The position numbers and the translations under genes were made by a program. Shown here piece after piece: positions 490 through 10,331 of a stretch of 10,331 nt of DNA. The first letter of the stretch is position 1. Each line of letters opens with the position of its first letter. The stretch covers positions 75,428-85,758 of the forward strand of contig MU070355.1 of NCBI GenBank assembly GCA_002284615.2, read 5' to 3'. Below the pieces are notes generated by a model. The model searched no databases, was not told the origin of the DNA, and saw only the letters and a list, made by a program, of their open reading frames with translations. This stretch comes from Dunaliella salina. Lineage: Eukaryota; Chlorophyta; Chlorophyceae; Chlamydomonadales; Dunaliellaceae.

Positions 490-614
490 TCAGTGCCTTC
501 TCCGCGGACAAGGGAGCATCCCTTTCACCTTCACATACTCCTCTGGTGGTGTGCCAGGGTAGTCCGCACGCATCCGCAAAATCTCTGATGTTGTCTCAAA
601 GGCATCATAGCGCC
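490..614 (-). CDS. GT47 terminal exon: RYDAFETTSEILRMR ... stop
   Basis: 125 nt, starting at phase 1, with a TGA stop at 492-490. The acceptor is CAG at 617-615. It encodes RYDAFETTSEILRMRADYPG, then TPPEEYVKVKGMLPCP and a basic RRRH end. DAF.T...+L..R is the usual last helix of algal GT47 proteins, so the protein ends close to the family's normal C-terminus. A possible internal GTGAAA donor after EEYVK would remove the tail, but no onward exon is needed because the frame closes here. Confidence 0.82.
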
Positions 615-3600
615 CTGTGGATCCACACAAGCACACAACAGCAGGATGTGTGAAAGAGGATCTGCGCAAGCACAAAACAGGATGCACAGATGGAAGCTGC
701 TCATGCAAACATGAGGACTGTGAAAGAGGAGGGGGGGCTGAGCTTGGCTTGTGTCCTCTGCCTGAAGCATAGATTTTGCTGGGTCCACTGCGAAAGGCTC
801 ACTTAGGAGGCCATGCCTGGGCTATCAGGACAGCTGGCATGGCAGCGCTGTGCAGTTCTCATTTGGTCTTCAACAGAGCTGCCGGATACAAAAACACAAC
901 CGCTCACAACCAGGCTAAGATGACCAAGCAATGCATTGCAGAAAGACAGCATCTCCTGGGCAAAGACAAATCCAGGTTTGTCCTAAAAGCTCAAGACTAA
1001 AAGCGCAAGACTAAAAGCTCAAGACAGTATTGACTCACTTGTGTTGGGTCCTCTAGTACACAACACAAGTGAGTCAATACTGTTTCTTTGCTGCTGAGTA
1101 AGTATATCCCATCTAATCCAGGTCCGAGCCAGCTTTTTGCAGCCCTAACTTCTGGGTCAAACCATTGCCTATTTCCAAACACCTGTTCCAAGGACCGGCC
1201 TTGCCCAGCCGACAACCACTTGCCTGATTCATCTAAGATTCCCCCCACGCTAGTCCCATGCATTAAGTGGTGTGCGGCACATTTCATCGCGGTCTGCATG
1301 CAACCAAGTGATGTGCAAGTGCTATTGGTCAAGAGGTGTGTGTGTGTGATGTGGTGCAGCGCACAAAATCTGTGAGCAGAATCGATCAACCCGTGTGTAA
1401 AAAAAGACATATGCAATCAAGAATCGGTGTGAATGTCATGCAGATCCCATAAAAAGAGCAGCACAATCCATGAAGGCTGTTACAATCAAGCAATGAGCTG
1501 TTCACCCCAGGCACAGTGTCTGGCCCTATGTCACAGCTCCATGGACATATTTCAGATGAGCAGCATAAATTCAATATTTGGCACCCTGCTTGGCACCTAC
1601 AAAGTTCTGAAATTGCAGACTATGAAGGTCGAACGATGTACCAAAATCGAGTCTAGAAGTGAAGTACAGATTTCATGGCCTGCAATGCGCCACAAGTGGT
1701 GAGCATCAGGTTGAAACTTGCAGGACGACAAAAGCGCCTTGCTTGCATACAGACCTCATGCACAAAAACATGCAGAATGCATGGCATAGAGAAGTAGCAT
1801 TTTCATCAATACATGGGCAATGTGTGGCATTTGTTGTTTGATACCTTTTAACACCAGGTAGCTGTTTGAAACGAGGATATTTTGGGTGACATTTGTTGCT
1901 CAGGCACATCCGATGGCATTTGATATGTGGGCTAGTGGGTGGCAATAGATACCAGGGCATATCTGGGTGGCATTAGATTTGAGGGCATTTTGGGTGGCAA
2001 TAGGTGCAAGGGCATATTTGGTGGCATTTGGTACACCATACTGTTTTGAAACCCTCAGCCTTAACTGCAATTTTAATCTCTTCAACGCAAGGTTTGAAGA
2101 GCAGGTATCAAATATCTTCCATTGTAAAACTCATGAGTAAGCCTCAATCAGCCTAATCATTCATGACTAATTCCCGAAGGTCCTGCCTCACACCATACCA
2201 GGCGCTGTGGCCTACTCATCCTGCTACATAACAAGGTTAGGCATCCATCTCTGGGAGGATCAGCAAACAAGAGGCTCGTAGAGACTCAAATGGTCTATGT
2301 GGCAAAATGAATGAGGGGCACCACAGGCACACCAATGCATGGATAGGCTCTGAGTAAGGATCCATTTGCTGCGCAGCAACAGAAGTGTGGTACACCTCAC
2401 AAAGATGGGATTTCAGTATCACATCAGGAATCAAATTCAAAGAGTCATGCAATTTGGATTTCAGCCATCACCTGCATCTTCCCATGGCTAGCAGTCAGTC
2501 ATATTGACTGCGCTGCTCCACACCGATGGCCTCAGTCACCGTGTAGATTTAGGGAATTGAGACTCCTTGGGCATCACACTGAAGGGCAGTTTGGAAATCA
2601 CCTGCATCTTCTTGCGCTGCTCCACACTGATGGACTCAATCACTGTGTGGATTTCAGGGATTTGAGACTCCTTGAGCATGACGCTGAAGGGCCGCCAATC
2701 CATCTCTGGCTCAAAGTAGTTGTGTACGTCATCACCTGCAGGCACCGTGAAGAGCAGGAGCCGTACAAAACTTTGAATGAACAAGGTATCACCAGGTGTG
2801 CTTCAAAACTTTGAATGAAGGCAAGGCATTACAAGAATGTGCTTCGAAACTTTGAATGAAGGCAAGGCATCATCGACGTTTAGGATGAAGACAAGGCATC
2901 ACCATCAGGTGCTCCAAAACTTTGAGTGGAGACAAGGCATTAGCAGCAGTGCTTCGAAACTTTGGAAGAAGAAAGGCAACCAGAACTTGGAATGAAGACA
3001 AGGCATTACCAGCCTGGCGAGCAGCTCTGGAAGTTGAAGTTGACAGAATTTGGAGGGCGCCACTTAGGGTGCCTTTCTTTAATGCATGCAGCCTATGGCT
3101 TGCATTGACTTTTTTTCTCCCCTTCTATTTGGAGGGCGAGAGGCAAACACTGGCTGGCAATGGTTGTTTGACCTCAAGCCACGTATTGGACAAAATACAA
3201 GGAGTACAGAAAAAGAGCACGATTACACCCGTCTTTTCTCATCCATTCATCATGGCATGTTTCCCACATGCCATGCTGGTCATTGCCTGATACCGTTTTG
3301 ACATAACAAGTGTGAGCATTCTACTTAAGGATTCTGCTCACTGACGACCACAACGTTGCAGCTTGCCACTGTCACCACACCTCTAGGAAATCACAAGGGC
3401 TAAGGATTCAGCTTACTAAGGACAACAGGGGGTGCAGCCCGCCAATGTCACCACAACCTGCTGTTCCCTGCCCAGGTTACAAGGATCAGGGTTTAGGGAC
3501 TTACGAGGGTTGAGGGTCCTGCTTACCAAGGACCACAGGGGCAGCAGCCTGCCACTGTCACCACAACCTGCTGTCCCCTGCCCAGGTTACAGGGATCAGG

Positions 3601-6513
3601 GTTTCGGGACTTGCGAGGGTTGAGGGTTCTGCTCACCAAGGACCACAGGGATGCAGCCTGCCGCTTCACCACAACCTGCCATTTCCTGCAATGTTACAAG
3701 GATTAGAAGTTCAGGGAAATACAAGGACCGAGGGTTCTGCTTACCAATGACTACAGGGATGCAGCCCGCCACCGTCACCACAATCTGACGATCCCCGCAA
3801 GCACCCCCCAGTGGAGAGAGGCTGCAAAGGAAAGGTTGGGGCGCACACAAGTTGGGCAGGTGCATTCATCAAGAGTGAGTGAGCATACATGCAGGATACA
3901 TGCACCAAAAATCGTGAAAAATGTGCACGAATCTCAAGCACGTGCATGGTATCATGCTGGACTGTAACAGACAGCATGAAGAGGGCCCGCTGGGGCACAA
4001 GTGCGTGCGCCATCTCAAGCTTCCTCTCACTTTGCTTCTACTCCGCTTCATGCGCTTGCTCTCACTTTGCTTCATGCACGCATCAATTGCAGAAAGCTAC
4101 TGCGAAATGAGAAGGTTGCCGCGCACCAGAACTTGGAGGCCTTCAGATAACGGACATAGTTTGGGGTGTGGGTAGTGACAGTGTAGCCAGTCCGGTTGTG
4201 GTGCTCATAGTATGTCTGGATGCATGCATAGAGTGGAGTACTCACAGTCAACTTGAGTGGATTGCTCACAGTCAGTATGTCTGGATGAACACATTCAGTG
4301 GATTGCTCACCGTCAGTATGAGTAGATTGCTCACAGTCAGTATGTCTGGATGCATGCATGGAGTGGAGTGCTCACAGGAGTGACATTGTAGCCAGTCCGG
4401 TTGTGGTGCTCATAGTATGTCTGGATGAACGCATAGAGTGGAGTGCTCACAGTTTGGATGCAGCTTGTAGTACCTGGGTGCACACCTAGACCTAAACCTG
4501 TCAGAGCTGTTAGGGAGCATTCAATCATAGGCAAAGGGGGCTTGCCATACCTACACATTTTGAAATGATTTCAAATTGGATAGAATCCAATACGTAATTT
4601 CTCTGCAAAGTCGGCTGAAGTCGATGAGGGCAAGCGGCAAGCACTCCCCCCTCTCGAAAGATGGGACATCAATGACAGGGCCAGTTAGGCAGGAGTAGCA
4701 GGAGTAAATATGGACAGGGTTGCTGCCTGGATTATTGTTTGCTGGGAATGGAGAACGATGGAAGCTTGACCCTCCAGTGACCTGAGAGAAGGCTGCACTT
4801 GCTCATGTGGTGGCTCAGACGCAAAGGCACTTGCTGGCAACCAGGGATGGGTCATACGTGGGTTTGGGAGAAGTTGTACGCGTTTAAACGTGTCAAAGAC
4901 GCATATGTTGCATAGGAGCGCGGGACGTGCGATTGGCATTTTAGGCAATTTTGGCATTTGCATTTGAAGCGTACGCGTATAAACTTCAATACATTAAAAT
5001 ACGCGTTTCACGTATGACCCAACCCTGCTGGCAACGGCTGTGTGATAATTTTGACCTACATTATGACTTCACCTCTTCATCTAAACGAGAGAGGCTGGCG
5101 GGGTATTGGTTGGAGCTTGTTGCGTCAAGAAACAGGCAGGAAGAATACCCTATCTGCAGTGGAGTTGGGAGCAAACATGGAAGCGACACAGAGGAACCTC
5201 ACTGCCTTGAGCATGCTGCAGTTTTGAAGTTTCACAGCTGCCGCATGTGCCACACTCTTACCTGCTCTCAGAAACAAGAGCCGACTTCCCAGCCCGTCTT
5301 GTCGATGCATAATACAACCAAAGTGGGGCGTGCTGATCAGGTTTGCTGTTCCCCTTTTTTTTGGTTGACTCAGGAGAGCTAAAACACAGCCTCTTGGTAT
5401 GTTCAACAGCTCCAGCTCCTCAATAGCAAGTGACCTTGACTTCAGAGACGCTAAGCGATAAGCCTGCATGGATGGGCCTGCAGGAACTTTACGGACTATC
5501 TGTGCAGGGCAGGTAGTCCCCATGAACACCCCCCCCCCACCCCACCCCAAATCCTCCCTTCCTTGAGACTGCCTCATCCAGCACTATTCAACCATGCCTC
5601 AGCATCTGCTGCACCATTCCAGGACCTGAAAAGTGTGTTGGACGCCTTTTTTTTCAATCTGCATAGTATCACTAAGAAAGCAGGTATGCAGCATTTGGCT
5701 GAAGGAAACTTCTCGAATGGCTGACTTGCTTGGAATGTTTCTCAGTAATAGCACAGGGAGCCCATGCGCCTCCAGAGCTCCTAGAATCAAGTTGGGAAGC
5801 ACCTTCAATGGGGAATTGGACTTAGAAGGTCTTTGCTCACCAAAGTGGCAAGACAATTGTGCCCAGTGACTTGGTTAAAAACACACTATTTTTCCCAGAA
5901 GCCATTGTTTGGCCTCCTTCAGCTGTTGATAGACTTGGCTTGTGAAGCAGCATATGCAGATGTGCTCAGGTTGCAAGGGGATGCAGCGATTGCAAAGCAG
6001 GGTCATTTCCTGCATTTGTTGCACACCCTTCCTGTCAGGTGCCCCCCACTACCACGCCCCCCCTTGAGCCCCCACAAAGTCAGGCTCCACGGCATATTTA
6101 GACGACGTGAGAGTAGCTTAAGTCCGTGGAGCACTGATTGTTTGGTGCAAGCTTGAAAATCCACCTCCTCCTGCCAGAACAGGTGCATAGCAGCCTCTGA
6201 GTCTCACACAGCATCTCTGCTTGCCAACCTAACATCAAGCCCTGATTACTTGGGACTTTTGAACTTTCGGTGCGTGGGGCACCAAGGATGCGTGCACGTT
6301 ACACGAGCAGCAAGGCGAAAAAAGTTAAGGGGGGTCTGTTCAGCAGGTTCAGCAGGACAACCTGCAAGCAGCCATGTTGACAGCAATGTTCCCACCACTC
6401 ACCCGCTGACGTATACCCCCTGAGTAGCCAGTGGCATCCTGGCAGTTGTCTGGCCAAGGGGCCTCCGTCGGGGGCTTCCTCTCTCCACAAATCCGCCCAG
6501 CAAAAAAGAAAGT
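490..6513 (-). CDS. Exostosin-like glycosyltransferase (GT47), C-terminal part, six exons, 5' part not identified
   Basis: Spliced exons: 6513-6403, 4215-4127, 3821-3745, 2735-2602, 1293-1224 and 614-490. Junction phases are 0, 2, 1, 0 and 1, and all agree. The ~201-residue product shows exostosin-family blocks in order: TFFFAGRICGER (start of the C-terminal nucleotide-sugar half), GYSGGIRQR, HHNRTGY, YLKASKFC, AGCIPVVIGDD, MDWRPFSV, IESISVEQRKKMQ, CAAHHLM and RYDAFETTSEILRMR. Known for the family: GT47 enzymes are Golgi type II membrane proteins that transfer sugars from nucleotide sugars to polysaccharide or glycoprotein chains (animal EXT, plant MUR3 and IRX10 types). Substrate cannot be read here. 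Missing are the N-terminal membrane anchor and the first half of the domain, which should lie upstream (higher coordinates) or beyond the window. Introns are 2187, 305, 1009, 1308 and 609 nt and full of repeats. Family call is strong; exon ends rest on phase, motif continuity and splice consensus, not transcripts. Confidence 0.85.
984..1025. repeat. 3 x 14-bp tandem repeat
   Basis: Three direct copies of TAAAAGCTCAAGAC; the middle copy has one change (GCGC for GCTC). The array ends at the left arm of the adjacent hairpin. Confidence 0.9.
1024..1083. repeat. Perfect 23-bp inverted repeat, 14-nt loop
   Basis: The left arm 1024-1046 begins ACAGTATTGACTCAC. The right arm 1061-1083 is its exact reverse complement. 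The loop is 1047-1060. No target duplication is visible outside the arms, so it is either a fold-back element lacking a clear duplication or a local inverted duplication. It is intronic in the GT47 gene. Confidence 0.92.
1224..1293 (-). CDS. GT47 exon: CAAHHLM ... GGILDES block, GC donor
   Basis: 70 nt, phase 0 to 1. The acceptor is GCATGCAG at 1301-1294. The donor side reads TCAG then GCAAGT, the classic GC-AG intron donor. The peptide TAMKCAAHHLMHGTSVGG continues ILDES plus G, and joins GRYDAFETT of the last exon. The family has a comparable CAA.H......G...LDE.G.yDAF connector between the MQ helix and the terminal helix. Reading through the donor instead gives an unrelated GKWLSAGQG tail, which lacks family resemblance. 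Confidence 0.75.
1876..2037. repeat. Degenerate 27-28-bp satellite, about six units
   Basis: Units resemble GGCATATTTGGGTGGCATT followed by a variable AGATTTGAG-like tail. The three best copies run from about 1956 to 2037. Unit lengths of 27 and 28 are not multiples of three, so a coding role is unlikely despite an open minus frame. Confidence 0.75.
2471..2587 (-). pseudogene. Disabled tandem copy of the 3' half of the MDWRPFSV exon
   Basis: In gene sense it matches the segment from CCCTTCAGCGTC to ATGCAG of exon 2735-2602, at an offset near 105 nt. Damage: one base is lost in the ATTTCAGGG/ATTTAGGG region, causing a frameshift to an early TGA. About 27 bp containing AGTCAGTCATATTGACT are inserted before the KKMQ equivalent. 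The donor-like ATGCAG then GTGATGG is kept. If spliced in, it would truncate the enzyme. Confidence 0.85.
2602..2735 (-). CDS. GT47 exon: DDVHNYFEPEMDWRPFSV ... KKMQ block
   Basis: 134 nt, phase 1 to 0. The acceptor is CAG at 2738-2736 and the donor GTGATT follows 2602. Residues run DDVHNYFEPEMDWRPFSV, then KESQIPEIHTVIESI, then SVEQRKKMQ. Family counterparts read DD..PFE..LDW..FSV, then E.+IP.L..IL.SI, then a Met-Gln ending the helix. The third-position base bias toward C and G is more marked than in other exons here. Its 3' half is duplicated about 105 nt downstream in a disabled form. Confidence 0.88.
2765..3025. repeat. Minisatellite with ~40-bp units next to an exon
   Basis: Six to seven diverged units built on AAAACTTTGAATGAAGGCAA then GGCATCACCAG and GTGCTTC. 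Lengths are about 38 to 45. It lies about 30 nt beyond the acceptor side of exon 2735-2602, inside the 1009-nt intron. Confidence 0.85.
3342..3685 (-). pseudogene. Ladder of four degenerate AGCIPVV exon copies
   Basis: Copies lie at 3685-3637 (49 nt), 3577-3527 (51 nt), 3467-3417 (51 nt) and 3382-3342 (41 nt). Their ends step by about 108, 110, 110 and 75. The three gaps between the first four exon units (true exon included) are exactly 59 nt, begin GT and end AG, and share sequence, so exon and intron were copied together. Each copy matches the TTGTGGTGAC...GGCTGC...CCTTG part of exon 3821-3745 but lacks its first 28 nt. One copy has a 1-nt loss and two a 1-nt gain near GGCTGC, and the fourth is shortened, so none can replace the true exon in frame. 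The 49-nt copy still reads AAGCIPVVLG in one frame. Confidence 0.88.
3745..3821 (-). CDS. GT47 exon: LSPLGG ... AGCIPVVIG block
   Basis: 77 nt, phase 2 to 1. The acceptor is a CAG after a CCTTTCC-type pyrimidine tract, and the donor GTAAGC follows 3745. It encodes LSPLGGACGDRQIVV then TVAGCIPVVI, the most diagnostic stretch of the exostosin domain (GCIPVVI with a following DD). The last base, G, joins GT of the next exon to give Gly, then Asp-Asp. This is the intact, in-frame member of a five-step exon ladder. The four neighbours toward lower coordinates are altered copies. Confidence 0.88.
3822..4126 (-). other. GT47 intron, 305 nt
   Basis: It begins GTGCGC and ends TTTGCAG in the gene's sense. 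It includes a short duplicated CTCTCACTTTGCTTC segment at about 4024-4075. Nothing else is supported. Confidence 0.65.
4127..4215 (-). CDS. GT47 exon: HHNRTGY ... YVRYLKASKFC block
   Basis: 89 nt, phase 0 to 2. The acceptor is a CAG at 4218-4216 and the donor GTGCGC follows 4127. The peptide begins TYYEHHNRTGYTV and ends YVRYLKASKF plus the first two bases of a Cys codon, completed by the next exon. SKFCL followed by a Pro/Gly-rich loop is a family hallmark next to the sugar-nucleotide pocket. NRTG is also a potential N-glycosylation sequon. The acceptor and first half of this exon are repeated upstream (see 4174-4453). Confidence 0.85.
4174..4453 (-). repeat. Acceptor/exon-start ladder of the HHNRTGY exon
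   Basis: The acceptor plus exon start (ATCCAG then ACATACT in gene sense) occurs four times. Exon-side first bases are at 4215 (true exon), 4280, 4345 and 4420, at steps of 65, 65 and 75. The copy at 4420 keeps about 41 nt of exon sequence, including HHNRTGY, before diverging. The middle two keep only seven. As a block, 4174-4248 matches 4379-4453 at an offset of 205. GTGAGC donor-like strings sit shortly after the copies. Confidence 0.85.
4842..5027. mobile_element. hAT-type MITE, 186 bp
   Basis: Terminal inverted repeats of 19 bp: left CAGGGATGGGTCATACGTG, right arm the complement of CAGGGTTGGGTCATACGTG (one mismatch). It is flanked by an exact 8-bp direct repeat CTGGCAAC at 4834-4841 and 5028-5035. 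CAGGG ends and an 8-bp duplication fitting nTnnnnAn are the hallmarks of the hAT superfamily. Three ACGCGT motifs (4878, 4973 and 5001) are candidate subterminal transposase sites. It has no coding capacity, so it must be non-autonomous. One mismatch in the repeats and an intact duplication suggest a fairly recent insertion. It lies in the 2187-nt intron. Confidence 0.93.
5262..6269. other. Exon-like cluster inside the intron, strand ambiguous
   Basis: Plus-strand reading: open segments with fair splice signals at 5427-5512 (SDKPAWMGLQELYGLSVQ), 5568-5683 (APFQDLKSVLDAFFFNLHS), 5899-6037 (LFGLLQLLIDLACEAAYADV) and 6178-6269 (TASLLANLTSSPDYLGLLNF). The first two join in phase across 55 nt, but later joins are not all in phase. 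Minus-strand reading: 5499-5262 (CTGCACAG acceptor, GAGCAG then GTAAGAG donor, with SLAIEELELLNIPRG), preceded by an open segment around 5830-5620 (LPNLILGALEAHGLPVLLLR). Neither matches a family I know. It may be a nested gene, a relic, or chance openness on both strands. Confidence 0.3.
5529..5550. repeat. C-rich homopolymer tract
   Basis: A run of ten C (5529-5538) is followed by ACCCCACCCC. In the plus-strand reading of the exon-like cluster it would form the pyrimidine tract of a 55-nt intron. Confidence 0.8.
6403..6513 (-). CDS. GT47 exon: FFFAGRICG ... GYSGGIRQR block
   Basis: 111 nt, 37 codons, phase 0 to 0. The acceptor is a CAG at 6516-6514 after a mixed pyrimidine stretch. The donor, GTGAGT at 6402, is close to consensus. 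The peptide starts TFFFAGRICGER and ends GYSGGIRQR. In plant and algal exostosins the same position reads like LLFFAG...YS.GIRQ, the strand-turn opening the C-terminal Rossmann-like half. Two cysteines (RICG, DNCQ) may pair. The next coding exon lies 2187 nt away, but the join GIRQR to TYYEHHNRTGY is what the family predicts, so the intervening sequence is intron. Confidence 0.85.
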
Positions 6514-6651: not shown

Positions 6652-6703
6652 CTGAGCAGGAAGCAATGGAAGTGCATGACATGCAATGAAAGTGAATAAT
6701 GCT

Positions 6704-6934
6704 GCATGAATGTCCAATGGAAGTGCATGAATGTGCAATGGAGGTGCTTGAATGTGCAACGAGAGTGCATGAATGTGCAATGGAAGTGCTTGAATGTGCA
6801 ATGGAAGTGCATGAATGTGCAATGGAAGTGCATGAATGTGCGATGAGAGTGCATGAATGTGCAATGGAAGTGCATGAATGTGCAATGGAAGTGCATGCAT
6901 GTGCAATGAAAGTGCATGAATGTGCAATGAGAGT
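6704..6934. repeat. 21-bp minisatellite, 11 units
   Basis: The consensus unit is GCATGAATGTGCAATGGAAGT, copied 11 times with few substitutions and no indels. Because 21 is seven codons and the unit has no stop, one plus frame and all three minus frames are open across it (plus: MEVHECA heptads). It lies just upstream of the GT47 exons, probably in an intron. The open frames follow from the unit and are not evidence of a gene. Confidence 0.93.
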
Positions 6935-7330
6935 GCATGATGACGCATGCTTATGGCATGATGACGCTGACCGCATTGAGGATACGATGCCGCATGCCTA
7001 CTCTGAGTGACACATCACGAGTCTCATCTAAATGCTGACAGTCCATACATACATGAAACTGGCCAGGTAACCAGCATGAATTGTTTGGAGACATATCAAG
7101 AAAGTTGCACTTGCGTCATGACGCCACACCATTGAATCTTTTCAGGCGTTGGCCCATGACCCCTGTTTCTGCTTTGATAGGCAGGGCAACATGAGTGGTG
7201 AGCCTCAAAAAAATCTAAGAACGTAATAAAGATAAGAGGGTGCTCCAAAAATGCATACAACCACTTGGACTTGTGCATGAAGCATGTTAACCCTTCCTGC
7301 TCATCAATCTGCACAACTACTACATGCAGA
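6935..7330. other. No gene recognised
   Basis: Unique-looking sequence between the 21-bp minisatellite and the next degenerate repeat. A minus-strand open stretch at about 7340-7100 has no recognisable domain and no clear splice pair. Confidence 0.4.
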
Positions 7331-7573
7331 AACACTGCACATTGGTGCTGCACACAGAAGCTACGTACTATGCATGGAATCTATGTTGCTATGTTGCTAC
7401 GTTGCCATGAGCTATGTGTGGAAGCTGGAAGACTGCACATTGGGCTGGTGCTGCACAAAGAAGCTATATGCTATCTCACAGAGCCTATGTGTGGAAGCTA
7501 CGTCGCTATACACAAAAACTATGTGTTTCAGCCGGAAGATACTGCACACGGGGCTGATGCTGTTGGAGTTTGA
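7330..7573. repeat. Three diverged copies of a CTGCACAC...GAAGCTA segment
   Basis: Segments near 7334-7370, 7433-7468 and 7540-7570 share ACTGCACA(T/C), GG(G)CTG and GTGCTG-like cores, with GAAGCTA(C/T) following in the first two. Spacing is roughly 100 nt. No coding function is assigned. Confidence 0.6.
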
Positions 7574-7636: not shown

Positions 7637-7670
7637 GGGAAGGGGAGGGGGGGGGGGAGGGGGAGGATTG
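7637..7670. repeat. G-rich tract, G-quadruplex potential on plus strand
   Basis: Successive G runs separated by single A bases, including one of eleven. It sits about 25 nt before the 30-bp hairpin. Confidence 0.8.
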
Positions 7671-7692: not shown

Positions 7693-7760
7693 GCTTCCTT
7701 CCTCCATTGCTGTGTGTCTTCCTTGAACGGGGAAGATACACAGTAATGGAGGAAGGAAGC
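7693..7760. repeat. 30-bp inverted repeat with 8-nt loop
   Basis: The left arm 7693-7722 starts GCTTCCTTCCTCCATTG. The right arm 7731-7760 is its complement except at two positions. Both differences leave G opposite T, so a plus-strand RNA would pair along all 30 positions with two G-U wobbles, while a minus-strand RNA would have two A-C mismatches. Loop TTGAACGG at 7723-7730. Confidence 0.92.
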
Positions 7761-7899
7761 CGTGCTCATCTTCTCTGGAAAATCCCTTGTATTTGGCACG
7801 TCCTCTCTATTGCTCATCAAAAGGTGCACCGGTCCCTTGCTGCAGCACGGCAGACTGGAGAAAGCCATCCATGTGTAAGCTGCATATCTTTGAAGGACA

Positions 7900-8390
7900 C
7901 TCACCTTCTTCTTTTTCCTTTGTGACACTCACCATCTTCCTTTTTTTCGAGGACACTCACCATCTTTTTCCTTTCTGGGTCATTTATGCGGTCATCAAAG
8001 CCGCAGTCTGGCAAATGTAATGCAGCTGTTGCATGTGTTAGCTGCATTTTTGTGAAGGCCACCCACCCAATGGCCGTTCTTCTGCGGCATTGGAGATTAT
8101 TCACAGTCCTTTGGGTTATTGAAGGTTACTCACCATAAGGCGTTCCTCCGCATCATTGAAGGCCATTCACCATGGAAAGTTCCTCCATGTCGTTCAAAAC
8201 CTCGCGCACCATTGGATATTCCTGTGCCATTGAAAGTCACTAAGCACTGGTCGTTTCTCTATGTCCTTACAAAATCACTTACGATCCCACGCTTCTCAAG
8301 ATCAAAGATGTCATTAAAGCAGTGCATTGAAAGCCACTCACCATCAGCCGTTTCTCTGTGTCATTGAAGCGGTCATCAAAGCCGTGCATC
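7900..8390 (-). repeat. Degenerate repeats carrying splice-donor-like ends
   Basis: On the minus strand, GGTGAGTG or a close variant recurs at about 7915, 7932, 7960, 8133, 8168 and 8341. Three units have a related open segment just before it: 8383-8342 (GFDDRFNDTEKRLM), 8002-7961 (GFDDRINDPERKKM) and 8160-8134 (FNDAEERLM). Weaker forms lie near 8186 and 8270. The shared peptide and the fixed donor suggest copies of one exon end. I do not recognise the peptide. It is on the same strand as the GT47 gene and could belong to it. Confidence 0.5.
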
Positions 8391-8397
8391 AAAAATC

Positions 8398-8643
8398 TGC
8401 TCGCTCCAAACGACTTGGTGGCGTGGGGGCTCAACATAAAGGACTGCACGCTAGGTATGACGATGTCCTACAAAAGGCAGGCAACATTGAGTTGACCACA
8501 ATGGCTGCCTTGAAGGGAGAATACTGCTCGGTCCAAATGACTTGGTGGCATGCGGGCTCAACATAAATTACTACATGCTAGGCATGACGATGTCTTACAC
8601 AGGGCGAGCAACTTTCGGTTGATACCAATGGCTGCTGTGCAAG
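8398..8643. repeat. Tandem duplication, 127-bp offset
   Basis: 8398-8515 and 8525-8643 align over most of their length, sharing TGCTCG(C/G)TCCAAA(C/T)GAC then TTGGTGGC, GGGCTCAACATAAA, GCTAGG(T/C)ATGACGATGT and AATGGCTGC. The similar plus-strand peptides (AQHKGLHARYDDVL and AQHKLLHARHDDVL) fall in different frames, so one continuous protein is not implied. Confidence 0.88.
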
Positions 8644-8950
8644 ACTCAACCAAAAAGGTGACTTTTATGAGTTTGCCACGACAAAGCACGAAAGAGTGTG
8701 CAAATGTTTTTCGGTGCTTCTGGCTCCTTTCTAAGACTTCAGAAACCCCAAGCTCGCAAGAACGCCACACAAGCTTGTCCGGTCAATTTCGGCTTAAAAC
8801 GCCTCTCTTAACATTTTACCTGATATTCCCAACAGCCAAAGAATCTGTTCCAAAATCCACCTGAATGTCCGACTTATACATGACTGAACATTACTCAGCC
8901 TTTCTCAGGAATGGATACGAGATGAATAACAGGGTTCAAGGATGAAGTGG
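8644..8950. other. No gene recognised
   Basis: Open stretches exist on both strands (for example minus ELGVSEVLERSQKHRKTF), but without a clear splice pair or family resemblance. Confidence 0.4.
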
Positions 8951-9067
8951 GAGGCATAAGCATCAACACTGTTTCAGCACTTGCTACTCACTTACTGCAC
9001 TTACTGAAACTGTGCAGTATGAAAGGAGGCATCTGCATCAACACTGTTTCAGCAAGTGCAGTAAGTG
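8951..9067. repeat. Nested direct and inverted repeats
   Basis: GAGGCATAAGCATCAACACT and its continuation at 8951-8979 recurs at 9026-9054, an offset of 75. Within it, 8989-9010 (CACTTACTGCACTTACTGAA plus AC) is the inverse of 9046-9067 with one mismatch, giving a 22-bp stem with a 35-nt loop. No coding signal. Confidence 0.85.
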
Positions 9068-9324
9068 ATGACCAGAAATGATCAAGCACTCTAGCGCGCG
9101 TCCGAGCAGGACAAAAACAGCCTGGATGGGACTTGCCTTTCCAGGCCTGTGTGCCTGTTTCCACTTGCGGCCTGTAGGGCGGTCCCTGCAGAAAAGCGGG
9201 CAGCTCTGAGCTTGTTGACACACGCCAAGTGACGCAAATGACATGTTTGGCGCATGCTGATGATGCTTATGAATACATGATGTTCTTGTTCAGCGAATGG
9301 TGAAAGTCTGCAAGGCTTCAAGCA
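9068..9324. other. No gene recognised
   Basis: Minus-strand frames are open, but no domain or splice pair is supported. Confidence 0.35.
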
Positions 9325-9447: not shown

Positions 9448-9560
9448 ACTACTTGCAAATACACCAAGGAAGCATGGATGTCATGCTCCTGTATTTTGCC
9501 ACCTACTTGTATATGCCCCAATGCTGCAGGAATGTCATGTTCTCGTATCCACCTAGCGAG
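9448..9560. repeat. Two ~54-bp diverged tandem copies
   Basis: The minus strand reads GAACATGACATTCCTGCAGC, later ATACAAGTAGGTGG, then GAGCATGACATCCATGCTTC, later TTTGCAAGTAGT. Each copy ends in a GTAGG/GTAGT donor-like string, again suggesting copying around a splice junction, though no exon is recognised. Confidence 0.55.
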
Positions 9561-9941
9561 CGCAGCCCAGCACCAATGCGCCCGGTGTCCCCTGTGCATG
9601 CAGAAACAGAGGAAGGCGGTCATCACAAACAGATTTTATAGCCAGGCCATCAAACTGTACTGAGATCGGCCTGGGTGCTCAAGCACTTATGCAACATTTC
9701 TGTCGAAAACAAATCACGTGAATAATGGTGGGGCGTGCATATTTACCAGAAGCAATCGATGGTTACATTTTGCTGATTAAACAGAAGAAAAATATTTTTC
9801 TCGGAAGGTGCGTGTAAATTTTGCGCCGACCCCCTGCCCTGCCCCCCCCCCCCCCAAAAAACTCTTCCAATGCCCCTACAGACCCAACATTAGGGTATCA
9901 ACCTGCTCCCTTTGAAATTTCCTATCCATCAGCATACTCAC
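9561..9941. other. No gene recognised; 14-C run
   Basis: Bases 9842-9855 are a run of 14 C. The rest is unremarkable AT-richer sequence. Confidence 0.5.
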
Positions 9942-10126
9942 CACGCAGAAAAGTGAGCCGCAGCAGAGTTACGGGGCAAAAATCGAGCAGGGCGCCTGAG
10001 CATACCAACTGTGACAGGCGCCCACAACTGGCCTGCATGTCCACAAACTGCCCTCCTAACTTCGCCTTGCAATGACACATTGTATATTGTCACTATCTTG
10101 GTAGCCTGAAAGGACATGCTGGACAT
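9942..10126 (-). CDS. Possible 5' exon, unrecognised
   Basis: An ATG at 10126 opens a 62-codon frame that meets a strong donor (GCGTG then GTGAGTATG) after 9942. The peptide starts MSSMSFQATKIVTIYNVSLQ and ends RNSAAAHFSA. I recognise no domain, signal peptide or membrane segment. Its strand and position would suit an early exon of the GT47 gene, but nothing in the peptide supports that beyond location. Confidence 0.2.
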
Positions 10127-10331
10127 CTGCTTCCCTGACCCCTATGGTCAATTCCCAAGTGCATGTGGACTTGACTCCAGGTCATACACACAGGCTCCCC
10201 CTTTTTGACTCAAACTCTAGAAAGGGTACTAATCAACAGTTCTGAAGCTCAAGAACCTGATGACATATTTAGATTTCTGTTCAAGTGGCTCAGGAAAATT
10301 CTGGAGGGGGGGGGGGTCAAATAGTCGAGAC

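Follow-up and report, generated by a model that had tools for sequence, protein, structure and literature searches.

In amphioxus, tandem repeats known as mirage minisatellites have been described at exon-intron boundaries of Adh3, the globin genes BflGb6 and BflGb9, troponin C and PGBD5 (PMC3087553, PMC3902484). According to the sections of these reports consulted, mirages occur at either boundary and have units of tens to ~160 nt, many of which contain AG or GT (PMC3087553); the units in PGBD5 measure 60 and 108 bp, in a report that also cites troponin C (PMC3902484). By RT-PCR, splicing appears to be undisturbed by these repeats (PMC3087553). Here we describe five arrays of this kind in part of one gene of the green alga Dunaliella salina (Chlamydomonadales), all of them within a 10,331-nt stretch of contig MU070355.1 that was analysed as a whole (the window). 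As in the amphioxus genes, the repeats span an exon-intron boundary, on the donor or the acceptor side, and their copies carry AG or GT. Unlike in amphioxus, the host is a green alga rather than a cephalochordate, five arrays fall in one partial gene, and the arrays are described at the level of sequence. On their structural features, we assign them to the mirage minisatellites known from amphioxus.

Intron gain by duplication has reportedly been the subject of work by Rogers and by Gao and Lynch, known to us through the papers that cite them. Intron gain by tandem duplication is reviewed in PMC3443670, and in the potato RdRp gene, as presented in the part of the source consulted, the duplicated unit consists of the 3′ end of an intron plus the 5′ start of an exon (PMC4974935). 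In that process, as at the locus described here, a local duplication carries splice signals, and the potato unit resembles our array at exon B (see below); however, the duplicates here lie inside existing introns. Introners, which are likewise intronic repeats with splice signals, represent one family inserted at many sites (cf. PMC9860276), whereas each array here copies its own junction and no array matches another within the window. Human segmental duplicates contain variable internal tandem repeats at exon-intron boundaries, and the sections of the report consulted tie these to transcripts and new introns (PMC2812944). In both cases, the structure of the gene is altered by a minisatellite that expands over an exon-intron boundary (PMC2812944); unlike the human repeats, with their transcripts and new introns, the algal arrays are described at the DNA level. 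A literature search for exon-edge repeats in green algae returned no such title among the best-ranked matches, which is a weak result given partial journal coverage, and the portion consulted of a D. salina genome paper (PMC11140103) does not mention introns.

On the minus strand of the window lie ten exons of a gene for an exostosin-like GT47 glycosyltransferase. Their joined translation is identical (298/298 residues) to residues 213–510 of P0041, a protein of 585 residues named exostosin-like glycosyltransferase, Dunaliella salina, at NCBI. In its C-terminal part, the translation scores 57.8 bits against PF03016 (curated cut-off 33.4), placing it in the GT47 exostosin family, and there also matches the solved structure of Exostosin-2 over residues 56–138 (E 1.8e-07). 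These results bear out an earlier note on this DNA, which had assigned the exons it saw to a single GT47 gene. In the order of transcription, the exons lie at 9942..10008 (e1), 9507..9591 (e2), 9137..9185 (e3), 8342..8467 (e4, peptide DIVIPSV...EKRLM), 6403..6513 (A, TFFFAGRICGERK...RQR), 4127..4215 (B), 3745..3821 (C, LSPLGGACGDRQIVVTVAGCIPVVIG), 2602..2735 (D), 1224..1293 (E) and 529..614 (F). Exon e1 is identical to the corresponding P0041 residues but doubtful: the annotated model may be wrong here, with e2 extending upstream. Exons measure 49–134 nt and introns 305–2,187 nt. All ten acceptors are AG, and eight of the ten donors are GT. The other two are GC (GCAAGT), at 9135–9136 after e3 and at 1222–1223 after exon E, which means that at least two introns of the gene are of the GC-AG type. 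P0041 residues before 213 and after 511 have no match in the window, and hence the gene extends past both ends of the mapped stretch. A gene end at 490, as the coordinates in the earlier note would imply, is ruled out; P0041 continues beyond exon F, which is followed by a GT donor at 527–528 and is not the last exon.

Tandem copies are found at 5 of the 20 junctions, namely the donors of C, D and e4 and the acceptors of B and e4. In each array, the added copies sit to the intron side of the exon. The three ladders that had been noticed previously, at exons C, B and D, are real and greatly exceed chance, and the broader claim that several unrelated arrays each duplicate a junction of one gene together with its splice signal stands with a larger count, five instead of three. 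The array at the donor of C (3328..3821, minus strand, as are all five; self-BLAST) combines 43–58 nt of the exon 3′ end with the donor and up to ~50 nt of intron. It contains five donors, the real one and four extra copies, with a main offset of 110 nt, at which self-BLAST returns E 1.3e-75. This ladder had been described as copying the whole exon. We reject that description, as the acceptor and the 5′ part of exon C are absent from the copies, which retain only the 3′ 43–58 nt and the donor.

The array at the acceptor of B (4174..4453; self-BLAST and pattern search) shows four acceptors, with the first exon base at 4215 (the real one), 4280, 4345 and 4420. Its self-BLAST match (E 2.3e-28) is at an offset of 205 nt, with 94.7% identity over 75 nt. 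Its earlier reading as acceptor plus exon start holds for the four acceptors but not for the exon start, 42 nt of which are present in only one of the three extra copies (4379–4453); seven exon bases are left in each of the other two. The array at exon D (2471..2735; self-BLAST) comprises the 3′ part of the exon and the donor, with one extra copy at an offset of 104 (E 7.4e-22; 87.5% identity over 80 columns). Thus, a second copy of the exon 3′ half does exist, as proposed, but the BLAST match covers exon only, and the accompanying donor copy (15 identical bases, with five matching intron bases, GTGAT) sits behind a 26-nt insertion. Array D is the weakest of the five junction copies.

Exon e4 has an array at each edge, and the two differ in sequence from each other. 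At its donor, an array containing the exon 3′ end and the donor occupies 7894..8369 (self-BLAST; donor pattern), which confirms the suspicion that donor-bearing repeats at 7900–8390 were a further case of the same kind. Its copies are diverged, and one pair that includes the real junction has a self-BLAST E of 1.7e-04. Besides the real donor at 8341, there are nine donor-equivalent sites, eight of them GT. The GT sites give the impression of good preservation, but because they were picked by a donor pattern, this count is circular, and we do not use it as evidence of conservation. The unit length is uncertain, and both 44 and 104 nt were tried in the founder-unit test described below. At the acceptor of e4, a fifth array, absent from the earlier note, at 8397..8635 (self-BLAST) comprises the acceptor with 71 nt of exon start and 41 nt of intron; the segment 8397–8508 is copied once, at 8524–8635 (offset 127, 82%).

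No pair joining two different arrays occurs among the 22 same-strand self-BLAST pairs in the window (E up to 1e-3). The five arrays are therefore unrelated in sequence, as had already been said of the first three. A unit that spans the exon-intron boundary, as in a mirage, is clear in array C, array B and both e4 arrays, and weaker in array D. Many units also carry AG or GT: GTRAGC is kept in all five members of array C, that is, in the real donor and 4/4 copies, and CAG is present in the three extra copies of array B, where the search pattern itself required CAG.

Duplication in the window is not confined to these junctions. In a map of local copies of 40-mers, a copy scoring at least 24/40 lies close by for 24.6% of window positions, compared to 0.45% in ten Markov shuffles. 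By the measure used for junctions the figure is 32%, so that between one quarter and one third of the window is locally copied. Five further duplication families are wholly intronic, and there are four short arrays in addition. As intronic controls, none of which includes a junction, we consider an array of ~41-nt units at 2755..3013, also with an offset of 110 nt; an array of 27/54 nt at 1873..2033; a 21-nt array of ~11 copies at 6661..6961; and two duplications detected by self-BLAST, at 7331..7562 (offset 98, 70%) and 8950..9054 (offset 75, 30 nt at 93%). The introns also contain three near-perfect hairpins, at 1024–1083, 7693–7760 and 8988–9068, with arms of 27–30 nt that are 93% complementary and loops of 2, 8 and 27 nt. 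Long C or G runs lie outside exons at 5527–5549, 7637–7666, 9842–9855 and 10306–10316.

Most copies look non-coding. All four extra copies in array C are broken, copy 1 by a 1-nt loss, copies 2 and 3 by a 1-nt gain and copy 4 by truncation. The copy in array D has a 1-nt deletion and stops, besides the insertion ahead of its donor copy, and the copy at the e4 acceptor has two in-frame stops within ten codons. Array B contains a pseudo-exon, B′, that on reading of the sequence is open (4376..4420, minus strand): 45 nt in frame (TYYEHHNRTGYNVTP) between an AG acceptor and a GTGAGC donor. It corresponds to approximately the first half of exon B and is absent from the annotated P0041. B′ may not be simple debris. 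If the copies were tandem or mutually exclusive exons, they would be expected to be complete and in frame; here the C, D and e4-acceptor copies are broken, and B′ is open but partial.

Comparison of copies 1 and 2 of array C shows 46/56 identical positions in the exon-derived part and 47/51 in the intron-derived part. As the former is not better kept than the latter, there is no sign of extra constraint on the exon-like part of the copies. For the real C unit, the exon and intron parts show 43/55 and 34/48 identities with copy 1, and 43/56 and 36/48 with copy 2. The exon side, which would be expected to diverge more slowly, thus does so only slightly, if at all. The donor hexamer of array C has a mean identity of 0.90 and ranks 7th among 40 gap-free hexamers. 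Copy divergence in array C is ordinary drift. By eye, real and copy donors are of equal quality, and hence the choice of the real donor must come from position, for which exon definition would be a natural account. The P0041 annotation uses the outer splice sites; that these are the sites in use is suggested by the annotated protein and by homologues.

Among 49 homologues, only P0003, a GT47 protein from EukProt, has internal repeats. These were found with a diagonal scan (9/12 identical, offsets 8–149), which replaced self-BLASTP, as the latter showed no repeats even in P0003. In the first repeat, at a 24-residue offset, the units end where exon A ends in the D. salina gene, as judged by alignment; in D. 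salina itself, the junction scan showed no copies at either junction of exon A. The second is a 39-residue tandem unit at the protein start; on reading its letters, the start of a following exon may be duplicated there out of frame. The P0003 repeats hint that the process might not be confined to one gene of one species. A further protein, P0004, listed under Pelagomonas calceolata, matches exons D and F over stretches of 34 and 29 residues, at 91–93% identity. It shares the end of exon D and the start of exon F; where exon E would be expected, its sequence is different and has no convincing match in the window. The near-identity suggests that the source of P0004 may be mislabelled or contaminated. 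The peptide of exon e1 is unlike the same stretch in two other GT47 proteins, P0035 of Dunaliella tertiolecta and P0039. Scans of viral and prokaryote contigs with P0041 yielded no relative.

To assess junction preference, we used three null models, which do not agree with one another, and a simulation. One caveat applies throughout: the locus was picked for the pattern, and hence all junction P values are too small. When junction coverage was compared with that of shifted exon maps, 5/20 junctions were covered at the loosest thresholds, versus 5.8–6.5 expected (P 0.71–0.81), and 4/20 at 30/40, versus 3.6 expected (P 0.48). This test is conservative in that every copy of an array is counted as background. 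It also misses the donor of D (22/40, with an insertion nearby) and counts the acceptor of F (25/40), which we did not accept as an array; in the junction scan of the window, 15/20 junctions are without an accepted copy. When array spans were placed at random, or the exon map was shifted, 5/12 arrays fell at junctions, versus 3.2–3.3 expected (P 0.19–0.20). Subsets gave 5/10 (P 0.16–0.17) and, for the larger arrays, 5/8 (P 0.08–0.12). Within the region covered by the earlier note, the count was 3/7 (P 0.06–0.17), and with two more intronic duplications added it was 5/14 (P 0.27–0.31).

However many copies it has, an array goes back to a single event on a single ancestral unit. Given this, the coverage and span nulls are too lenient, and a null with one founder unit per array, which leaves ten families, is the most apt. 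Under this null, 5/10 families lie at junctions, versus 1.2–1.4 expected (P 0.0024–0.006, or 0.03–0.06 if exon-anchored pairs are twice as detectable). With 17 junctions, leaving out the doubtful e1 and the acceptor of e2, P was 0.0013–0.003, and 0.017–0.034 with doubled detectability. Over both junction sets, 1.0–1.4 families are expected, and P is 0.0013–0.007, or 0.017–0.065 with doubled detectability. The main count excludes the four short arrays (13, 14, 24 and 24 nt), the addition of which moves P from 0.0026 to 0.0029. With a margin of 5 nt, appropriate for array D, P was 0.005–0.011 (0.05–0.10 with doubled detectability), and omission of array D (4/10) gave P 0.02–0.04 (0.12–0.19). Simulation of random duplications, with exon constraint and a detection score, yielded 11–22% junction-spanning families, corresponding to P 0.003–0.044 for 5/10 and 0.0007–0.014 for 5/8; with array D left out, the simulated fractions give P 0.019–0.15. 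These numbers hint at a junction excess of about two- to four-fold, at a locus picked for that excess. A preference of duplications for junctions at this locus is hinted at, not proven.

The arrays are likely to be minisatellites of the mirage type, in which a tandem duplication of local DNA extended over an exon edge by chance. We infer the following course of events. An error of replication or repair would copy 40–130 nt in place. Where the segment straddles a donor, a new donor would arise downstream of the old one, and where it straddles an acceptor, a new acceptor would arise upstream. The complete exon would stay intact, and because it is untouched, the duplicate would be spliced out as intron and be near neutral, as long as the site adjoining the complete exon is used. 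Unequal exchange could then gain or lose units, and selection would preserve the real exon but not the copies, which would drift. Since introns are long and exons short, exon definition would pair the nearest strong sites across the short exon and would probably pick the true ones, even if a decoy donor is as good as the real donor. The outcome would be intron growth and a stock of pseudo-exons, with no function needed for the decoys. The presence of the extra copies on the intron side in all five arrays is as such tolerance predicts. The exact gene model, the pervasive tandem duplication, the broken copies and the mirage-like anatomy together make duplication debris a probable reading, and some points count against it. 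The founder-unit P values are mostly small, so position-blind duplication is a little strained as an account of this locus; the real C exon has diverged from its copies about as much as the intron part has, although selection should hold it; and B′, as read from the sequence, keeps the frame, has both an acceptor and a donor, and may be more.

The earlier note had raised two other explanations, a duplication process linked to junctions and selection for decoy sites. In the former, exon edges would be hot spots in D. salina, owing for example to co-transcriptional breaks, R-loops or boundary structure. The founder-unit comparison, with five of ten families against 1.0–1.4 expected, speaks for it (P 0.0013–0.007; 0.017–0.065 with doubled detectability; up to 0.10 with the 5-nt margin), as do the simulation (P 0.003–0.044) and the arrays of different sequence at both edges of e4. 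However, the span nulls (P 0.06–0.31) show little excess and the coverage null (P 0.48–0.81) none, the founder-unit P rises to 0.02–0.19 without array D, and this is one locus, selected for its pattern, at which three quarters of the junctions are without an accepted copy. We consider such a process unlikely and would not claim it from this locus. The same low expectation attaches to a wider version, in which exon edges in Dunaliella would be real duplication hot spots, mirages at many genes would feed intron growth and new exons, and B′ would be a nascent exon.

Selection for decoys would mean that copies are retained since they slow or regulate splicing, through intron retention or an NMD switch. 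GT or AG is indeed kept in many copies, and GTRAGC throughout array C. Yet the C donor hexamer is surpassed by others in the same alignment, between copies the exon parts are no better kept than the intron parts, and most copies are broken; this idea of the earlier note is thus unsupported, and we regard it as very improbable. Tandem alternative exons, whether mutually exclusive or cassette, seem equally far-fetched: B′, with its 45 nt in frame between AG and GTGAGC, is what such an exon might look like, but it covers only about half of exon B and is missing from P0041, all four C copies are frameshifted or truncated, and those of D and the e4 acceptor carry stops. Least credible of all is an assembly artefact in which mis-joined reads made the copies. 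If the window derives from the published D. salina draft, which combines Illumina with ~10x PacBio data in an ALLPATHS-LG assembly (NSFN01; PMC5658486), there might be some room for such errors; however, matches within arrays are 72.6–94.7% identical and include indels, differences that would not arise from a single mis-assembled sequence.

Within the sections of the literature examined, structures named mirages have so far been described in amphioxus. The finding of five arrays in part of one algal gene suggests that mirages arise generally, as a by-product, wherever repeat-rich introns undergo local duplication. In practical terms, they are a trap for gene prediction, which can be misled by decoy exon edges of the same apparent quality as the real ones. 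Algae with repeat-rich introns would be a good place to test whether mirages breed introns and exons.
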